NCBI RefSeq assembly: GCF_013402815.2
Contig: NZ_CP058601.1
Location: 868,001 to 932,000, forward strand
Length of the DNA: 64,000 nt
Source of the DNA: Natrinema halophilum
Lineage (GTDB): Archaea; Halobacteriota; Halobacteria; Halobacteriales; Natrialbaceae
Reading direction: 5' to 3'
Shown here: positions 7,615-22,476 of the stretch, piece by piece
Layout: every line of letters starts with the position of its first letter
Position numbering within the stretch: the stretch's first letter is position 1
Notes under the pieces: model-generated
The model's input: only the letters and a program-made list of their open reading frames with translations
What the model was told of the DNA's origin: nothing
Database searches by the model: none
Made by a program: the position numbers and the translations under genes

Positions 7615-8478
7615 GTAAATCGCGGTCCTCTCGGATGCTACGGGTCTTATTACAATAGTAGGTGTGTAAAGAGAATCTCGCCTCGTGTTCTCGTCTGAGG
7701 ACTGGCGACGGACTCGTCAAATGACTCCGTGCTCGGATCCGTGACGTTTGATCATCGGAAACTGCTCAGGAACTGATCACCACTTTGCGAAAACCTGTGG
7801 TTATTCGTTGTCGGCTCTCACTGGACGGTTTAACGCTGAAGCCTGCTCGCTTCGAATCGAACCTGGTTCTGGTGTCAGCGCCAGAAAACGCCCGACGATG
7901 ATAATTCAATCTCGTTTGCCACTATCAAACGTCAGGAACTGCCGGCGATAGAGTACCGGCGGTGCTTCGGGAAATCAACCCCTTCAAACGACCCTGCAGC
8001 GGAGGCTAGTCATTACTGGAGGTGGCGAGAGGATGCTGGAAAATGCTCGCCAAAGATTTCCCGCTGAATCGATCGGAGACTAGCACTCTTCTTCGTGTGC
8101 GGCCAGAACCGTTTCCTGAGACTGTCGCTTATCTGCCCTGTGAGCGATCCACAACCAGATGCACGCACCGAGACGATTTTCAGGTCGCCGATATGGTCGA
8201 GATGGCAATGTCAGAAATAAGACACGCACTCCCGGAGTTCAGACCAATCCAGCGTAAAAAAACAGGTGACGTCACACGGGTCCTTTCACCGTGTTCTCTC
8301 AGACAGTTTTGATCGCCTCGCTGGACGTTTTGCCGAACAGGCTATCTTCCGTGCAAGCCTCGTCCTGACAGTCCTTGAGAAATATCGGGTCCAGTTGCTG
8401 TTTTCAGCAGAGAGCAAGTCGCGAATTTCGATACGGGTACCGGTAGCATTATTATTCCCTACGGTCGAAGTGAACTAT
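7615..8478. other. Long spacer between regulator and beta-mannosidase
   Basis: These 864 bases contain no gene I can support. The beta-mannosidase reading frame stays open back to 8266, but those 71 codons do not resemble a GH2 N-terminus and read like non-coding DNA. An AT-rich stretch near 8445-8455 is a weak TATA candidate for the GH2 gene. The rest may be decayed sequence. Confidence 0.5.
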
Positions 8479-11016
8479 ATGCGGGTAGAGTCGCTCAACG
8501 GCAGTTGGGAGTTCCGGGAGTCGGATGCTGATCGATGGCTTGAAGCGTCGGTTCCTGGCGGAGTGTACACGGACCTCCGCAACGCAGACGAGATTCCAGA
8601 TCCATACGACGCCGATAACGAACTCGACTTGCAGTGGATCGGTGAATCTGATTGGGTGTATCGACGATCCGTGATTCTCGACGACGCATTTCTCGATGAA
8701 GACTGTATCCGCCTGCAGTGTGCCGGTCTCGATACGGTCGCGACGATTCGCATCAACGGTGAAATCGTCGGCGAAGTCGCTAACATGCACCGTAAGTACG
8801 AGTTCGACGTCAGCGACGCTCTCATGCCCGGGAAAAATCAGGTGGAAATCACATTTCACTCCCCTGTCAAATACAGTACGCGTTACTCGGAGAGCCACGA
8901 TTACCCGGTTCCGACGCTCCGGTACCCGAACGACCAGCCGGGTCGAAACTTCATTCGAAAAGCTCAGTGTCATTACGGGTGGGACTGGGGTCCGTGCCTT
9001 CCAACCGTCGGTATCTGGCGGGATATCGAACTCCTCGCCTATTCCGAGGCGCGGATCGAGTATACGAAGACCAGACAGGACCACCGCAGTGACGGCGTCG
9101 GCCTCGACGTAACTGTTGGCATCGACGCGCCGACGGATGGAAAATTGGTACTCGCAGCAGAAGTCGCCGACGTGACGGTACGCGAAGTTATCAGCGTTGC
9201 GGAGGGAGACAACGAGGTTACGGTGAGACTCGACGTCTTTGATCCCGACCTTTGGTGGCCAAACGGGTACGGCGATCAGCCGCTCTATGACCTCACCGTA
9301 ATCGTCGACACAGAAACCGAGTCGGTGCCGTCCGATACTGACAAAGAAACGGCCAACCGCTCCGTGAAGTCGGCTGACACGCCGGTTCCTCCCGATCCTG
9401 TTCACGAGGTGACTACTCGCATCGGCTTCCGTGATCTCGAACTCGTTCGTGAATCCGACCAAGACGGCACCGGCGAATCGTTTACGTTCGAAGTCAACGG
9501 GACCCCAGTTTTCGCGAAGGGAGCCAACTGGATTCCGGCGGACGCATTGTACGGACGGGTCAACCGCGAGCGGTACGAGTCATTGCTCGACAGCGCTGTA
9601 GACGCCAACATGAACATGATTCGCGTCTGGGGAGGTGGCTACTATGAGCGCGACAGCTTCTACGAGGCATGCGACGAGCGGGGGCTCCTCGTCTGGCAAG
9701 ACTTCATGTTCGCTTGCGCCCTGTACCCCAGCGATGAGAAGTATCTCGATTCCGTCGAAGCGGAGGTCAGGTACCAGGTTCGCCGGCTAGCTGATCACCC
9801 ATCGATCGCGCTTTGGTGTGGTAACAACGAGGTAGAGATGGGTCTCCAAAGCTGGTTCAACGAAGTCGACGAATTGGATCAACTGACGGATGACTTCGAA
9901 ACGTTGTTTTACGACGTGATCGGAAACGCCGTTACCGAGGAGGATGAGACGCGAACGTACTGGCCGGGCTCGCCGTCGAGCGGCTTCGGGATGAAAGATC
10001 CCCACCAGACAAACACGGGCGACCTGCACTACTGGGACGTCTGGCACGACGGTGCGGATTTCGAGGAATACGAGACGGTCGAACCGCGGTTCGTCTCCGA
10101 GTTCGGATATCAGTCGTTTCCGTCGGTCGACGTCCTCTCCTCGGTTCTTCCTGCCGACGAGCTTAATCCGACCGCGCCGTTGATGGAGCATCATCAGCGA
10201 AACGAACGGGGGAACCGGACGATCCTCCAACGGATGGCAGCATCGTTTCGCATCCCGTTTAGCTTCAGCGATTTCGTCTATCTCAGTCAGATACAGCAGG
10301 GGCTGGCGATGAAGATTGCTGTCGAACACTGGCGACGATCGAAACCCTACTGCATGGGGACGCTCTACTGGCAACTGAACGATCTCTGGCCCTGTGCATC
10401 GTGGTCTTCTATCGAGTACGGCGGTGACTGGAAGGCGCTCCAACATATTGCGCGCCGCATCTACGCACCGGTCCTGCTCTCTACTACAGCCACTGATGAC
10501 GGCGACGATGTCGACGTCTGGCTTACGAACGACGAGCCCGAACCACTCGAGGGGATCGTAACCGTCGAAGCGTACACCTTCGACGGTGAACTCGTGTGCG
10601 AAGTCGACGAACAGGTTTCGATCGCAGCGCTCGACAGCGTTTCTGTCGCGACCGTCGACGTCGATCGAATGGGTGGTGACGTCCCAGTGGAAGACCTCTT
10701 TCTTCGCGTCACCTTCGACGGAACCGACGAGACGTATCCTGTATTCGAGTTCTTCGAGGAGTATAAGCATCTCGAACTTCCGGAACCGATCTTGGATATC
10801 GCTGTCGACGGGAACGAGGTGACGGTCAGTACGGACGCTGTCGCACTATTCGTCGAACTAGACGTGTCGGTGGATGGACGGTTTTCGGACAACTACTTCC
10901 ATCTGGCGGCCGACGAGGAACGCACGGTCGCGTTCGACACCGATCGTGACCCCGACGATACCGAACACCGCCTCGCTGAAGAATTGTCGGTAAATCACCT
11001 CCGAGCGACCTATTGA
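8479..11016 (+). CDS. GH2-family beta-mannosidase
   Basis: This 845-residue exo-glycosidase is predicted to release mannose from the non-reducing ends of beta-1,4-mannooligosaccharides. There is no signal peptide, so it should act in the cytoplasm after uptake. The ATG at 8479 begins MRVESLNGSWEFRES, the classic GH2 opening (jelly-roll sugar-binding domain, then Ig-like domain). The TIM barrel has FAKGANWIPADALYGR, the acid/base WCGNNEVE (Glu451) and the nucleophile FVSEFGYQSFPS (Glu541). The SEFG(F/Y)QS form is characteristic of beta-mannosidases rather than beta-galactosidases. Length and motifs are complete. It converges with the exported GH5 gene. Confidence 0.92.
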   Translation: MRVESLNGSWEFRESDADRWLEASVPGGVYTDLRNADEIPDPYDADNELDLQWIGESDWVYRRSVILDDAFLDEDCIRLQCAGLDTVATIRINGEIVGEVANMHRKYEFDVSDALMPGKNQVEITFHSPVKYSTRYSESHDYPVPTLRYPNDQPGRNFIRKAQCHYGWDWGPCLPTVGIWRDIELLAYSEARIEYTKTRQDHRSDGVGLDVTVGIDAPTDGKLVLAAEVADVTVREVISVAEGDNEVTVRLDVFDPDLWWPNGYGDQPLYDLTVIVDTETESVPSDTDKETANRSVKSADTPVPPDPVHEVTTRIGFRDLELVRESDQDGTGESFTFEVNGTPVFAKGANWIPADALYGRVNRERYESLLDSAVDANMNMIRVWGGGYYERDSFYEACDERGLLVWQDFMFACALYPSDEKYLDSVEAEVRYQVRRLADHPSIALWCGNNEVEMGLQSWFNEVDELDQLTDDFETLFYDVIGNAVTEEDETRTYWPGSPSSGFGMKDPHQTNTGDLHYWDVWHDGADFEEYETVEPRFVSEFGYQSFPSVDVLSSVLPADELNPTAPLMEHHQRNERGNRTILQRMAASFRIPFSFSDFVYLSQIQQGLAMKIAVEHWRRSKPYCMGTLYWQLNDLWPCASWSSIEYGGDWKALQHIARRIYAPVLLSTTATDDGDDVDVWLTNDEPEPLEGIVTVEAYTFDGELVCEVDEQVSIAALDSVSVATVDVDRMGGDVPVEDLFLRVTFDGTDETYPVFEFFEEYKHLELPEPILDIAVDGNEVTVSTDAVALFVELDVSVDGRFSDNYFHLAADEERTVAFDTDRDPDDTEHRLAEELSVNHLRATY

Positions 11017-11354: not shown

Positions 11355-12629
11355 TCAATCGATGACGGTAATCGTGACCTCGTCAGTGGTCGATTCGCCG
11401 TCGTTGTCCGTGGCGGTCAACGAGACCGTATAGGAGCCCGAAGAACGGTACCGGTGGTCGATCCACCAGCCGTTCTTTGTCGTGTCGTCTCCCAGATTCC
11501 ACGAGAGACACGTCGGCCAGCGTGACTTCCCTGACGTATCTCGTGCGTTGAACGATATCCGTTCGCCGACGCTGATTTCCGTCGTGCTCGGGTCGATTTC
11601 GGCGATGGGTTTCGCCGGCGTAGTAGGTCCGTCCGGTTCGTCGGGTTCATCCGGATCTTCGGGCGTGTCGGGAGTATTTTCGGATCTGCCGTGCAAGAAA
11701 CCGATGATTTCGTCGAAATAGTCCGACGCGGAGTAGGGACCCGAACAGCTCTCGGACCACGCTGGACTGGCCATATTCATCGGAGGGGTTTCCCCGTCAC
11801 CGTTCCAGGCCCACGCGATTACCGGCCAGTCCAACTCGTTGGCGTGCTGGATCACTGCTGTCGCATCAGTGCTCCCCGGACGCCGGGTACCGAACTCGCC
11901 GATAAGACACGGATATCCCTGATCATCGAGGTGATCAAGGTGTTCGGAACGAAGCGACTCGCCCGCGCCTGCATTGTAGGCGACACCGTAGACGTGCGTC
12001 GAGATGATGATGTTGTCGTCATCGATCTCGTGTACTCCTTCGGCGGCAGCATGGACGTTCTGTCCATAGCCGGGAGCGTCGACGACGATCGGTTTCGTGT
12101 AATCGGTTCCTTTTCGGACGGTGGCAATCGCATCAGTGTACGCTGAGGCCCACTCGCTGGCGCCTACGTCATGACCGCCCCATTCGTTCATCAGGTTGAT
12201 CGTGAACTCGGCATTGCTCGAGAGGGCATCGTACTGTTCGACCCACCAGTCGGCTGCGTTCTGCAGATACTGCGGATCTGACTGGCCGTTGTGTGGGTAG
12301 TGGTGGTAGGTTGCGATGAGCTCGTACCCTTCCTCGTATCCTTCTTCGATCCATCGTCTCTGCTCAGCGACGTCCGCTTGTGACTCACCGCGTTCGGGTG
12401 GCTCGAGTTCAATTCGAAGTGTGTGAATGCTGTCTCGGTGTTGGTTCATCAGGTCCCATCCAAGATCCTGGTTTCCGTTACAGTAATACGATGGCTGGAG
12501 ATTTGTACCGTCGCCGAATCCCAGATCCGTCGCGGACGCTGAAACGGATCCCGATGTGTTGGTCAGTACGGAAGTGCTGATAACAGCACCGGTAGCCGAT
12601 GTTTTGAGGAATCGTCTGCGTGACACCAT
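11355..12629 (-). CDS. Tat-exported GH5 endo-glycanase (probable beta-mannanase/cellulase) with PKD domain
   Basis: This 424-residue secreted enzyme has a Tat signal at the N-terminus (SRRRFLKTSATGA). The GH5 barrel carries the acid/base in INLMNEWGG (Glu149), a conserved HVYG (His212) and the nucleophile in LIGEFGT (Glu245). A Pro/Asp/Glu-rich linker (about 313-338) leads to a C-terminal PKD domain (about 337-424) that may help with surface or polymer contact. GH5 includes cellulases and mannanases. The adjoining beta-mannosidase and oligosaccharide transporter make endo-beta-1,4-mannanase the best guess, but the subfamily needs a phylogeny. Confidence 0.88.
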   Translation of the reverse strand: MVSRRRFLKTSATGAVISTSVLTNTSGSVSASATDLGFGDGTNLQPSYYCNGNQDLGWDLMNQHRDSIHTLRIELEPPERGESQADVAEQRRWIEEGYEEGYELIATYHHYPHNGQSDPQYLQNAADWWVEQYDALSSNAEFTINLMNEWGGHDVGASEWASAYTDAIATVRKGTDYTKPIVVDAPGYGQNVHAAAEGVHEIDDDNIIISTHVYGVAYNAGAGESLRSEHLDHLDDQGYPCLIGEFGTRRPGSTDATAVIQHANELDWPVIAWAWNGDGETPPMNMASPAWSESCSGPYSASDYFDEIIGFLHGRSENTPDTPEDPDEPDEPDGPTTPAKPIAEIDPSTTEISVGERISFNARDTSGKSRWPTCLSWNLGDDTTKNGWWIDHRYRSSGSYTVSLTATDNDGESTTDEVTITVID

Positions 12630-13638: not shown

Positions 13639-14265
13639 ATGACAGGTGACTCGAGCGACCGTCGACAAACAAAGGTCGAGCGAGTAATAGATAAATACGA
13701 GCTCGATGGATGGGGCGATCGGTTAGAAGCTGAATGGGTCGGCGACGGTGCGGAGCGAACGAGTCTGCGCGACCTCGCGACCCAGTTCAATCAGGCTGTA
13801 CTTCGATCAGCAGTGCGCGAGGCGGAGGCATCCGTCCTCGATTCCGACATCGAAGCCCTCTACCAAACGTTAACGGACGATGACGTGTCGCGGTCAGAAG
13901 CCGTTCGGAGGCGGCGCAATCTCGAACGCTCAGGGGTCGACATCGACGACGTTCAATCGGATTTTCTCACCCATCAGACGATCTATACCTATCTCACGAA
14001 CGTTCGCGACGCCTCTCTGCCCGACGAAGACACCGAAGACCGCGTCGAACGAAAGAAAGAGACCATCCAACGGTTAGCCGGTCGAACACAGGTTGTTACA
14101 GAATCCACGCTCGAGGAGTTGGGTAACGCCGGTGAAATCGCTGCTCGAGATTACAACGTATTCATCGATGTGCGCGCTATCTGTGGCAACTGTGGGGCAG
14201 ATTACTCGGTCAGCGAATTACTCGAACAAGGTGGATGTGACTGTGACGTCGTCGCGGTTCAATGA
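13639..14265 (+). CDS. rdfA: Rod-determining factor RdfA homologue
   Basis: This 208-residue acidic protein matches the haloarchaeal RdfA family, which is needed for rod shape in Haloferax volcanii. Visible family features are the N-terminal KVERVIDKYELDGWGD helix, the SLRDLATQFN segment, the LTDDDVS region and a C-terminal zinc-finger-like CGNCGADY followed by GGCDCD. I place the start at the ATG at 13639; the frame stays open to a GTG at 13501, but those 46 residues are not family-like. It lies 65 bases upstream of an archaea-specific SMC-related gene, the typical rdfA partner arrangement. Its biochemical role is not established. Confidence 0.87.
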   Translation: MTGDSSDRRQTKVERVIDKYELDGWGDRLEAEWVGDGAERTSLRDLATQFNQAVLRSAVREAEASVLDSDIEALYQTLTDDDVSRSEAVRRRRNLERSGVDIDDVQSDFLTHQTIYTYLTNVRDASLPDEDTEDRVERKKETIQRLAGRTQVVTESTLEELGNAGEIAARDYNVFIDVRAICGNCGADYSVSELLEQGGCDCDVVAVQ

Positions 14266-14299
14266 CGACCATGGCAGAAAGACGATCGTAACCAAATAA

Positions 14300-14309
14300 C
14301 ATTTATATT
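14300..14309 (+). promoter_or_regulatory. Putative TATA box of the SMC-related gene
   Basis: CATTTATATT lies 22-31 bases before the ATG at 14331, suggesting that the SMC-related gene has its own near-leaderless promoter in addition to any read-through from rdfA. Confidence 0.5.
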
Positions 14310-14330
14310 GAGCGACGAGAAGAGGACCCC

Positions 14331-16283
14331 ATGTCATCCCCAGAGTCAGTCACCTCGTCGATTTCCGTAGAAGCGGAAAATATTGGAGGTATCGATAGTA
14401 CCGAGGTATCACTCCAGCCCGGCGTAAACGTTCTGACTGGCCGGAACGCGACGAATCGAACCTCGTTTCTCCAGACGATCATGGCAGGTCTCGGCAGCCG
14501 ACGGTCGTCGTTGAAAGGAGACGCGGACGCTGGTCACGTCGAGTTAACGTTCGACGACGAACAATACACGCGATATCTCGAGCGGCGCAACGGAGAGGTC
14601 GTCTTCGAGGGCGACCCCTACCTCGATGATCCGGAACTCGCAGATCTCTTCGCCTTCTTACTCGAGTCCAACGAGGCGCGCCGAGCCGTCAGAAGCGGCG
14701 ACAACCTCCGCGAACTCATCATGCGCCCCATCGATACCGATGAGATCGAGGCCGAGATCAGTATGCTCGAGGCCGAAAAGCGCGACCTCGACGACCGCCT
14801 CGAAGAACTTTCTCGTCTCGGAGGCGAACTACCGGACCTCGAGGAACGACGAGTCACACTCGAAGAAGAAATCGACGAAACGGGCGAACAGATATCCGAT
14901 CTTGAAGTCACACTTGACGAGTTCGATCTAGACGTCGATGCAAGTCGTAACCGAAAAGAAGAGATCGAATCAGCGTTTGCTGACCTCCAGGAAGCCCGGA
15001 CGGATCTCGAATCGATCGAGTACGACCTTGAGACCGAACGGGAAAGCTACGCCGAACTCGAACGAGAACGTGACGATCTCGAGGATGAACTCGAGTCGAT
15101 CGACGAAGACGACGAGTCGCCGGATCGTCTCGAGGGTCGTATCCAGGAACTCCGCGCTCGAAAACGATCGCTCGATACGACCGTGAGCGAACTGCAAAGC
15201 GTAATTCGATTCAACGAAGAACGCCTTGCCAATGACGGGTATGATCTCGAACTCGATGCTTCGAGTCCGTCAGACAGCGACGACGGAGCGATAACAGAAC
15301 AGCTTCTTGAAGACTCTGATGATATCGTCTGTTGGACCTGCGGTTCACAAGTGGACCGCGAGCGGATCGACTCGACGCTCGAACAACTGCGCTCACTCCG
15401 ACAGACGAAATTGGAGGATCGGAACGATTTGCAAGAGCAGATAGACGAGATCTCCGCCCGTCAGAAGGAACTGCGGAAACAAACCCAAAAGCGCAGCCGG
15501 ATCGAAGAGCGGCTTTCGACAGTCGAAGACGAACTGGAACGTCGCGCACAACGAATCGAAGAACTCGAGGCAGATATCGAAGAGCAACAAGACTACGTCG
15601 ACGAACTGGAGGAAAACGCCGAAACGTTCGAAGATACCGCATACAGTGACGTTATCGAGACACATCGTGAACTGAATCGCCTCGAACTCGAACTCGAGAA
15701 CCTCAAAGACGAACGCGACGAGGTAGAAGCCCGTATCGACGAAATCGAAACAAAGGTCGATGAACGGAGCGATCTCGAAAGCGAACGGGAGAGCCTCGAC
15801 GACGAGCTTACTGATCTCAGAACGCGCGTCGATCGGATCGAGGAAAACGCTGTCGATGCGTTCAACGAACACATGAGCTCGATCCTTTCGATCCTCGAAT
15901 ATCAGAACATTGATCGTATCTGGATCCAGCGCCGCGAAGAGACTGTCCGAGAAGGCCGCCGAAATGTGACACGGACCGCATTCGACCTTCATATCGTCCG
16001 CTCGACTGAGGACGGAACGACCTACGAAGATACTGTTGATCATCTCTCCGAGAGCGAACGCGAAGTTACGGGACTGGTCTTTGCGCTCGCTGGATATCTG
16101 GTCCACAACGTTTACGAGGACGTCCCGTTCATGCTCCTCGATTCGCTCGAGTCGATAGACTCTACGCGAATCGCCGAAATCGTCGATTACTTCGAAGAGT
16201 ACGTCGATTGTCTCGTCGTCGCCTTGCTCAGAGAAGATGCCGAAGCCCTCTCGGACTCATATAAGTATGTCCGTGAGATCTGA
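14331..16283 (+). CDS. Archaea-specific SMC-related protein (RdfA partner)
   Basis: This 650-residue protein has Rad50/SMC architecture: an N-terminal half-ATPase, a first coiled coil (about 138-300), a hook-like CWTC (Cys334, Cys337), a second coiled coil (about 350-515) and a C-terminal half-ATPase. The nucleotide motifs are atypical. The Walker A position reads GRNATNRTS (37-45), with Arg instead of Lys. The signature region is LSESEREVTG (572-581). The Walker B line reads FMLLDSLESID (600-610), with Ser at the usual catalytic Glu. This is the pattern I expect of the archaea-specific SMC-related family. It probably acts with RdfA in cell-shape or chromosome organisation; the direct function is unknown. 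Confidence 0.85.
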   Translation: MSSPESVTSSISVEAENIGGIDSTEVSLQPGVNVLTGRNATNRTSFLQTIMAGLGSRRSSLKGDADAGHVELTFDDEQYTRYLERRNGEVVFEGDPYLDDPELADLFAFLLESNEARRAVRSGDNLRELIMRPIDTDEIEAEISMLEAEKRDLDDRLEELSRLGGELPDLEERRVTLEEEIDETGEQISDLEVTLDEFDLDVDASRNRKEEIESAFADLQEARTDLESIEYDLETERESYAELERERDDLEDELESIDEDDESPDRLEGRIQELRARKRSLDTTVSELQSVIRFNEERLANDGYDLELDASSPSDSDDGAITEQLLEDSDDIVCWTCGSQVDRERIDSTLEQLRSLRQTKLEDRNDLQEQIDEISARQKELRKQTQKRSRIEERLSTVEDELERRAQRIEELEADIEEQQDYVDELEENAETFEDTAYSDVIETHRELNRLELELENLKDERDEVEARIDEIETKVDERSDLESERESLDDELTDLRTRVDRIEENAVDAFNEHMSSILSILEYQNIDRIWIQRREETVREGRRNVTRTAFDLHIVRSTEDGTTYEDTVDHLSESEREVTGLVFALAGYLVHNVYEDVPFMLLDSLESIDSTRIAEIVDYFEEYVDCLVVALLREDAEALSDSYKYVREI

Positions 16284-21160: not shown

Positions 21161-22476
21161 ATGTACATCCACCGAACCTACCGAGCGAAAATCCTTAACC
21201 ACAGCCAAGTGGCTGAGATGCTCGACCAGCACGGATGGAGTGCATCGAAACTCTGGAACGTTGCAAACTACCACTCTCGACGAGAGTGGGATGAAACGGG
21301 CGAGATTCCCGACGATTCGGACTTGAAACACGAGTTGAAGACTCATCCAAAATACAAAGGACTACATTCTCAGTCCAGTCAGCGCGTTCTGGAAGAACTC
21401 GCTGAAGCCTTCAACTCGTGGTACGGCAAACGCACGAACGATTCTCGTGCGAACCCGCCCGGTACCGCAAGAAAAACTACTACGACAACCAAGGCCGTCG
21501 CGTCCACGAAGAACACCCGCGTTCCACCGTGACGTGGAAGCAAAAAGGCATCCGTCACGACACCAAGAACAACCGCGTCCGCCTATCGAAAGGTGCGAAT
21601 CACAAGGAACACCCGAAAGCATGGGAATACCTCCTTGTCGAGTACGAAACGCACCCCGGCGTCACCGTCGAGAACCTGCAACAGGTTCGAGCGGTCTACG
21701 ACAAAGTGAAAGAACGCTGGGAACTGCACTTAGTGTGCAAACACGAAGTGGAGACGCCCACTGCTCCCGGTAACGAGACGGCTGGTGTTGACCTCGGCAT
21801 CTGTAACTTCGCGGCGGTCACATACAGTACCGAGCAAGCCGACTTGTACCCCGGCAACCGCCTGAAACAGGATGGATACTACTTCCCGAAGGAAATCGTC
21901 AAGTGTGACGATTCAGGCGGCCAAGAAGCCACTCGTCTTCACAAGAAGTGGTCGGAGCGCCGAAGACACTTCTTCCACAGCCTCGCGAAACACATCGTTG
22001 AGAAGTGTGTCGAGCGTTGTGTGGGGCGCATCAACATCGGAAAACTCGCTGGTATCCGTGAGGACGAGAACGGCGACTCGAAGAACTGGGGTCGTCACGG
22101 CAACCTCGACTTGCACGGATGGGCGTTTGACAGATTCACCTCGATTCTCACGTACAAAGCGAAAGTCGAAGGAATTGAAGTCGTAGACGTGTCTGAACGC
22201 GACACGAGCAAAACGTGTTGCGTCTGCAGTCGGGAAGACGATAGTCAGCGCGTCGAACGTGGCTTGTACGTCTGTGAGACGTGTGATGCGGCGTTCAACG
22301 CTGATGTGAATGGGGCGGAGAACATCCGTCTCGACTCGAATCAAAGTAACTCCGAATCTTCGGCCAATTTGGACGGGGATAGGAGTACCGGCTGGTTGGC
22401 ACAGCCCGGAGTCTACCTTCACGACTTGTCCAGCGGATTCCAACCGCAGGCACAAGTGGTAGACTGCAAACCCTAA
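21161..22476 (+). pseudogene. tnpB: TnpB (RNA-guided nuclease family), frameshifted
   Basis: The N-terminal part (from ATG 21161, MYIHRTYRAKILNHSQ) and the C-terminal part lie in different frames. They join at about 21461-21462: NPPG in frame 1 continues as YRKKNYYDNQ in the next frame if one G is restored. Otherwise the protein would be about 438 residues and complete. RuvC residues are visible in GVDLGICN and in NADVNGAENI, and the zinc finger is CCVCS...CETC. The middle RuvC acidic position is less obvious near RINIGKLAGIRED. The lesion is one base, so the inactivation is recent or a sequencing artefact. Confidence 0.85.

Follow-up and report, generated by a model that had tools for sequence, protein, structure and literature searches.

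Replaced ATPase residues in the RdfA-partnered Sph protein of Natrinema halophilum and their conservation among haloarchaea

The rdfA-sph pair and the head motifs of Sph

The window analysed here is a stretch of 64,000 nucleotides of Natrinema halophilum (NZ_CP058601.1, positions 868,001 to 932,000), and it carries two adjacent genes on the same strand, rdfA (13639-14265, +) and sph (14331-16283, +), with a spacing of 65 bases. Rod-determining factor A (RdfA), of 208 aa, scores 251 bits with PF21811 (cut-off 27, E 1.1e-74), which bears out the identity given to it in an earlier sequence-only reading of this DNA; both genes lie where that reading had placed them. The product of sph is a protein of the SMC superfamily with 650 aa that matches the profile NF045487 of the archaea-specific SMC-related proteins (ASRP, or Sph) with 690 bits (cut-off 300), and Rad50 profiles gave at most 71 bits, with cut-offs of 700 and more. 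Given that the NF045487 profile decides over a general Rad50 resemblance, the protein was filed as an ASRP and not as Rad50; thus the term Rad50-like, as used in the sequence-only reading, is appropriate for the fold and the hook and wrong for the family. Judged by sequence, the protein is a member of the known ASRP/Sph family, of the RdfA-partnered haloarchaeal rod-shape type. A TATA-like TTTATATT was seen by eye approximately 20 bases before the ASRP start, within window positions 14266-14330, and suggests that sph, although it adjoins rdfA, may be transcribed from a promoter of its own into a leaderless mRNA.

The P-loop (residues 37-45; 14439-14465, +) reads GRNATNRTS, with Asn42 in place of Gly and Arg43 in place of Lys, and with Ser45 kept. 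The segment that includes Walker B and the D-loop, PFMLLDSLESID (residues 599-610; 16125-16160, +), contains the Walker B LLDS (residues 602-605; 16134-16145), where the catalytic Glu is replaced by Ser605; Asp604 and Asp610 are kept, and Glu607 is new. The ABC signature LSESE (residues 572-576; 16044-16058, +) keeps Ser573, and a zinc-hook CWTC (residues 334-337; 15330-15341, +) is located between predicted helices, in the middle of the coiled coil. A motif search of the whole protein revealed no GxxxxGK[ST], GK[ST] or hhhDE anywhere in it; canonical sequences were present in the Rad50 (GVNGSGKST, LSGGE, LDEPTVFLD) and the SMC (LDEVDAFLD) of the same genome, which served as a positive control. 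A displacement of the canonical residues is therefore not seen for the P-loop or for hhhDE, and survives as a rival explanation in the form of a shifted Glu607, discussed below. The absence of the Lys and of the Glu, as well as the retention of coils and hook, had been correctly noted from the letters alone. The further statement that all the ATPase motifs are altered goes too far, as Ser45, Ser573, Asp604 and Asp610 are kept. Nor does LSESE belong to the loss, given that the LSxSE type (LSTSE, LSKSE or LSRSE) is shared by relatives in which GK and DE are intact.

The AlphaFold2 model of this ASRP (mean pLDDT 86.2) predicts an intact head and long coiled coils. In it, the P-loop joins a strand (31-35) to a helix (40-54), and Walker B lies on a strand (600-603) that ends at Asp604; according to this model, and chemistry aside, the Walker A and B sites occupy their usual positions at the N and C termini. 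The closest folds detected with Foldseek in the PDB were Rad50, Smc5/6, MukB, SMC and Lamassu LmuB, with E down to 2.6e-15 against Rad50, so that the head fold is that of the superfamily. PADLOC matches reflected mostly a coiled-coil likeness to LmuB and JetC. Since two residues that define the canonical SMC and Rad50 ATPases are absent, i.e., the P-loop Lys (Arg43) and the catalytic Glu (Ser605), the protein is not to be classed with these ATPases.

Three of the four ASRPs encoded by this genome carry GRNATNRTS and LLDS. The fourth (L004, C2:317130-318818) has the P-loop GSNWQGKSS, which keeps the Lys, and has lost the catalytic Glu and the D-loop Asp. In addition, a remnant ASRP-RdfA pair was found at C2:258075-258722 (L009, L026), where part of an ASRP N-terminus (GRHATNRTS), covering 50 positions of the profile, adjoins an RdfA fragment with two stops. 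A sequencing error, a pseudogene or chance were ruled out as the origin of the altered motifs in the window, given that paralogues, and homologues from many species, share these motifs and encode them with varying codons.

Spread and history of the substitutions

An alignment of 202 different ASRPs was assembled, 191 of them haloarchaeal and 11 from other families of the same phylum. The haloarchaeal set includes 115 sequences from whole-genome profile searches, which represent a spread of the matches listed and not all matches, and 76 from a pattern scan (80 loci) that includes the P-loop; the P-loop counts of the latter are circular, and for this reason both sources are reported separately. 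The catalytic Glu is absent from 115/115 profile-found and 76/76 pattern-found sequences, i.e., from all 191. At position 43, the 115 profile-found ASRPs have an Arg (93 sequences) or a Lys (22); at position 605, most have Ser (94), and the rest have Gly (12), Ala (6) or Arg (3). The question whether the substitutions are family-wide is thus answered in the affirmative for the Glu throughout the haloarchaea, and for the Lys in 93 of the 115. In the main clade, Arg43 is found in 88 of 92 rows and Ser605 likewise in 88 of 92. Among the 22 sequences that have a Lys here, 16 form one clade (GK-type, to which L004 belongs) with [WF]xGKSS P-loops, SEGE signatures and LLVDG-like Walker B motifs; the other six have NK together with Ala605.

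Other positions of the head are remarkably constant. Residue 43 is Arg or Lys in 191/191 haloarchaeal ASRPs, Asp604 and Ser573 are each present in 191/191, and Ser45 is invariant in the 202 rows, whatever the taxon; the zinc-hook CxxC was found in 100/100 profile-found haloarchaeal sequences. The codons behind this constancy vary, with six Arg codons at position 43 and TCG, TCC, TCA and TCT at Ser605. From the alignment, the change is clade-wide and conserved, and is not simple decay. The conserved residues are those expected in this superfamily to hold Mg-ATP and the opposing head, and the conservation of Arg/Lys43, Ser45, Asp604 and Ser573 suggests that nucleotide binding has been retained. 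Glu607, located two residues after the lost Glu and three before the D-loop Asp, is present in 175/175 haloarchaeal ASRPs outside the GK-type clade and absent from all 8 relatives that keep a Glu at +1; two non-haloarchaeal ASRPs of the DN type also have a Glu three residues before the D-loop Asp. Two roles are conceivable for this residue, that of a catalytic base which has moved or that of a contact at the interface.

The 11 non-haloarchaeal ASRPs have GK in all cases, and DE in eight, DN in two and DD in one, which indicates that the loss is derived in the haloarchaea. Three sub-cut-off matches (two in G186 and one in G154) with LSGGE and LDEPT were dropped from this set as Rad50-like after failing the length and coverage filter, and they sit in the denominator of the RdfA adjacency count and not among these 11; G286 and matches at approximately 106-119 bits, SMC- or Rad50-like by frame length, were also left out. 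A tree was built after removing the motif columns, using 73 of the 202 rows (25 random ordinary main-clade rows plus all the special ones), and in it the haloarchaeal rows all fall on one side of a branch with support 97/93. Its outgroup consists of the non-haloarchaeal rows, which have long branches; their order, and the position of the RdfA-linked family as sister of the haloarchaea, are unsettled, and the order within the haloarchaea is poorly resolved. The simplest history suggested by these sequences would be that the Glu was lost at the base of the haloarchaea, that the Gly and the Lys were lost in the main part, and that a later Arg/Lys exchange took place in a nested group.

RdfA as a partner within and beyond the haloarchaea

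The pairing of both proteins, also put forward in the sequence-only reading, is general. In the phylum sample, RdfA is located within 1.5 kb of 42 of the 45 haloarchaeal ASRPs, in all four relative orders, and one of the three without an adjacent RdfA is near a contig end. Across 145 haloarchaeal genomes, 123 have both proteins, 20 have neither, two have only RdfA and none has only an ASRP, with two genomes outside the matches listed assigned by elimination. Twenty-two of these genomes are devoid of ASRP, including the 20 that are also devoid of RdfA, and the existence of the latter implies that the pair is dispensable. For 122 adjacent pairs, the sequence distances of the ASRPs follow those of RdfA with r 0.93, a value inflated by shared species ancestry; 1000 shuffles gave no more than 0.19. 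The closest RdfA sequence has the same ASRP type in 118/118 haloarchaeal pairs, from which it follows that each of the two paralogue types keeps to its own partners. In a published survey of 24 haloarchaeal genomes, 42 of 54 RdfA and 42 of 50 SMC-like proteins were directly adjacent (PMC10869688; this and the other papers are cited for the parts covered).

The AlphaFold2 model of RdfA (mean pLDDT 89.7) is helical. At its C-terminal end there is a Cys cluster of the form Cx2C...CxC (residues 182-202; 14182-14244, +), and C182, C185, C200 and C202 are each kept in at least 90% of 47 RdfA sequences; three of these four columns are also present in the partners of GK-type ASRPs and in most of the non-haloarchaeal partners. 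When the model was compared with the PDB using Foldseek, the best match had an E of 0.39 and none was below 0.1, a result that is not evidence of a new fold, and the best VIA-align hit (Z 4.5 over 46 residues) shows nothing. With respect to a viral origin, no relative was found in one viral-contig scan nor in phage records.

Outside the haloarchaea, an RdfA-like gene was found directly downstream of ASRPs with GK and DE in four genomes of a single family, f12 (L234, L236, L246 and L248). PF21811 gave 35.7 bits with the RdfA-like protein of L234, over the gathering score, and 26.4 with that of L236, just under the score of 27. A profile made from haloarchaeal RdfA sequences only gave E values of 5e-13, 5e-8 and 4e-5 for three of them and 0.03 for the fourth, whose assignment rests on its position and on a profile that included relatives. 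No RdfA was seen beside the fifth f12 ASRP (a second copy in G164) or beside six ASRPs from other families, some of them on short contigs. A PF21811 match in G239 was not counted as RdfA, since by eye the protein resembles an unrelated SurA-like chaperone. The presence of RdfA beside motif-intact ASRPs implies that the partnership predates the loss and that RdfA is not a consequence of it. As far as profiles and gene neighbourhoods indicate, the ASRP-RdfA pair, unlike the altered Sph, is older or wider than the haloarchaea.

In the four f12 loci, RdfA is followed on its 3' side by an overlapping or abutting gene for a winged-helix-like protein (L234, 5656-6141, +; L236, 1919-2416, -; L246, 1762-2295, -; L248, 1620-2147, -), for which no significant match was detected in any haloarchaeal flank examined. 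Two of the four winged-helix-like proteins were tested, and their match to HTH_45 was just over its cut-off, while a weak similarity to the chromatin protein Sso10a was far below the cut-off of that family. As for other neighbours identified by eye, a large beta-mannosidase-like glycoside hydrolase (8266-11016, +) and a secreted cellulase-like protein with a PKD-like tail (11355-12629, -) are encoded in the window upstream of rdfA, and the window also contains an ORF of 352 aa with C-terminal CxxC pairs at 21418-22476 that resembles an IS200/IS605 TnpB-type protein; genes resembling this type were also noticed by eye near the ASRP loci L234 and L236.

Possible roles of the altered head and comparison with known systems

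In Haloferax volcanii, where rdfA and sph are adjacent as in the window (RdfA-Sph3, HVO_2174-HVO_2175), deletion of rdfA or of sph3 leaves only disks and motility is lost, and a cytoskeletal-like role of Sph3 has been discussed (PMC10869688). The Sph3 phenotype is worded the opposite way in PMC13286277, and the primary report is followed here. It has also been shown that mutants of sph2 and sph3 have opposite shapes, and that all four Sph proteins, and not SMC, matter for survival in a gene-conversion assay (PMC11276520). In our data, the rdfA-sph locus of Haloferax prahovense (L130) encodes a protein with GRNATNRTS and LLDSVEAID. Downstream there is a SAMP-like gene that we take to resemble HVO_2177, and from this likeness the L130 protein is probably the orthologue of Sph3, the volcanii Sph3 itself lying outside the alignment. 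Given that this relative of Sph3 has the altered motifs, the roles in shape and in DNA exchange are probably carried out by a protein of such kind. Within the parts covered of the 2024 RdfA-Sph3 paper, the word Walker has no match and ATPase has two unrelated ones, and no report of the replaced ASRP residues or of non-haloarchaeal RdfA neighbours was found in open-licence PubMed Central text.

The reading that we favour, with a probability that we place at about even, is that Sph is a dimeric hook-and-coil clamp partnered by RdfA, whose heads would bind nucleotide and be deficient in hydrolysis. It builds on the observed motif loss and its conservation, the gene neighbourhood with RdfA and the fold prediction, and to these it would add nucleotide binding, head engagement, absent hydrolysis, a physical contact with RdfA and cross-linking. 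ATP would be held by Arg43, Ser45 and Asp604 together with Ser573 from the signature of the opposing head; the heads would engage and remain so, and the zinc hook would link the distal ends, which would result in a persistent clamp or cross-link in place of a cycling motor. Opening and closing might then be governed by RdfA, helical and with its Cys cluster, and by protein level, and not by hydrolysis. The cross-linked target could be DNA, membrane-linked shape proteins, or both, and the phenotypes of published mutants point to DNA exchange as well as to cell shape (PMC10869688, PMC11276520). Regarding turnover itself, the clade-wide substitutions, the lack of a canonical P-loop or Walker B elsewhere in the protein, the predicted integrity of head and coils and the constant partnership with RdfA make it plausible that it has been lost in its normal form in a working complex. 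The observation made in the sequence-only reading was confirmed, and its interpretation is supported in part, as regards a deficient turnover in partnership with RdfA, with a structural filament or tether as its more speculative side.

Several points weigh against the clamp. The GK-type clade has followed a different route, given that it keeps the Lys, has no Glu at +1 or at 607, and has lost the D-loop Asp in 13 of its 16 members; the loss of the Glu is not exclusive to haloarchaea, as it is also missing from three of the 11 other ASRPs (two Asn, one Asp); and shared species ancestry lies behind part of the distance correlation with RdfA. A change of Lys to Arg often impairs nucleotide binding too, so that binding may also have been lost. 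Finally, Glu607 could act as a substitute for the lost Glu. On this last ground Sph might still be an ATPase, in which Arg43 replaces the Lys and the catalytic carboxylate has moved to Glu607, acting in cis or across the dimer. The distribution of this residue, constant outside the GK-type clade and never seen where a Glu stands at +1, together with the Glu at D-loop -3 in the DN-type pair and the retained Walker B Asp, signature Ser and P-loop Ser, speaks for such an enzyme. We nonetheless hold it to be unlikely, if worth keeping in mind, because the pattern amounts essentially to two independent origins, which makes its statistics weak, a side chain at D-loop -3 would need to reach over the interface in the ABC geometry, the replacement of both Gly (by Asn) and Lys (by Arg) in the P-loop is left unexplained, and the GK-type clade has no Glu at that position.

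The view closest to that of the sequence-only reading is a purely structural, nucleotide-independent coiled-coil scaffold or an intermediate-filament-like polymer. It accommodates the alteration of both P-loop and Walker B, the long predicted coiled coils and the cytoskeletal-like role discussed for Sph3 (PMC10869688); nevertheless, a scaffold would need neither invariant nucleotide-contact residues (all except the Lys and the Glu) nor a constant positive charge at position 43, and we consider it improbable, on a par with or slightly below a displaced carboxylate. It is also conceivable that the chemistry is supplied in trans, either by pairing of Sph heads with an intact Rad50 or SMC head, both encoded in the same genome, or by a catalytic residue donated by RdfA, an obligate-looking companion. 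This we regard as very improbable, since RdfA already accompanies ASRPs in which Lys and Glu are both present, its model has no convincing PDB fold match, and SMC loss was without effect in the assay where the four Sph proteins matter (PMC11276520).

If the clamp reading is extended to the history of the family, an ATPase of the SMC superfamily may have become a naturally nucleotide-locked clamp in haloarchaea; the ancestor would be an ASRP-RdfA unit, and the locked form would have been recruited for cell shape and DNA exchange, a proposal to which we give somewhat less than an even chance. If true, it would be the lineage-wide counterpart of the Walker B trapped mutants made in the laboratory, and in present-day non-haloarchaeal relatives the unit is accompanied by a winged-helix protein. 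Given that the SMC superfamily is understood as a group of ATP-driven machines, a whole class of archaea with constitutively turnover-deficient members, and motif-intact relatives with the same partner, would constitute a natural before/after pair in which the purpose of the ATP cycle can be addressed. How archaea form rods would also become testable at the level of mechanism, through single-residue changes in Haloferax volcanii. These results suggest that members of the ASRP family should not be named ATPases without a test.

Among known systems, the window protein shares with the ASRPs already described (coalescin ClsN, Sph1 and Sph2; PMC9389158) the NF045487 match, the zinc hook, the bipartite head and the coiled coils. 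That work attributes Walker A and B motifs to the ASRPs, the parts covered do not mention the replacement of catalytic residues in haloarchaea, and it reports no consensus flanking genes; in contrast, RdfA flanks most of the haloarchaeal ASRPs and four others in our analysis. Arcadin-4 is likewise SMC-like and linked to the cytoskeleton (PMC9389158, PMC10869688), and it was grouped with Rad50 and not with the ASRPs in the former paper. In comparison with SMC-kleisin-KITE complexes, which have kleisin-like and tandem winged-helix partners, RdfA is without a convincing PDB fold match, and a winged-helix gene follows it only in the four non-haloarchaeal loci. With Rad50 and SMC the window protein shares the head fold and the coils, and its CxxC hook is as in Rad50; it differs from them in the absence of the Lys and of the catalytic Glu, in its profile family, and in its length, 650 aa versus 896 to 1209 aa in the open frames of the Rad50 and SMC of the same genome. 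A similar replacement is found in the degenerate nucleotide-binding site of CFTR, where a Ser stands for the catalytic Glu (LLDS) and ATP is held without hydrolysis; CFTR differs from Sph in being a membrane transporter and in having retained the P-loop Lys.

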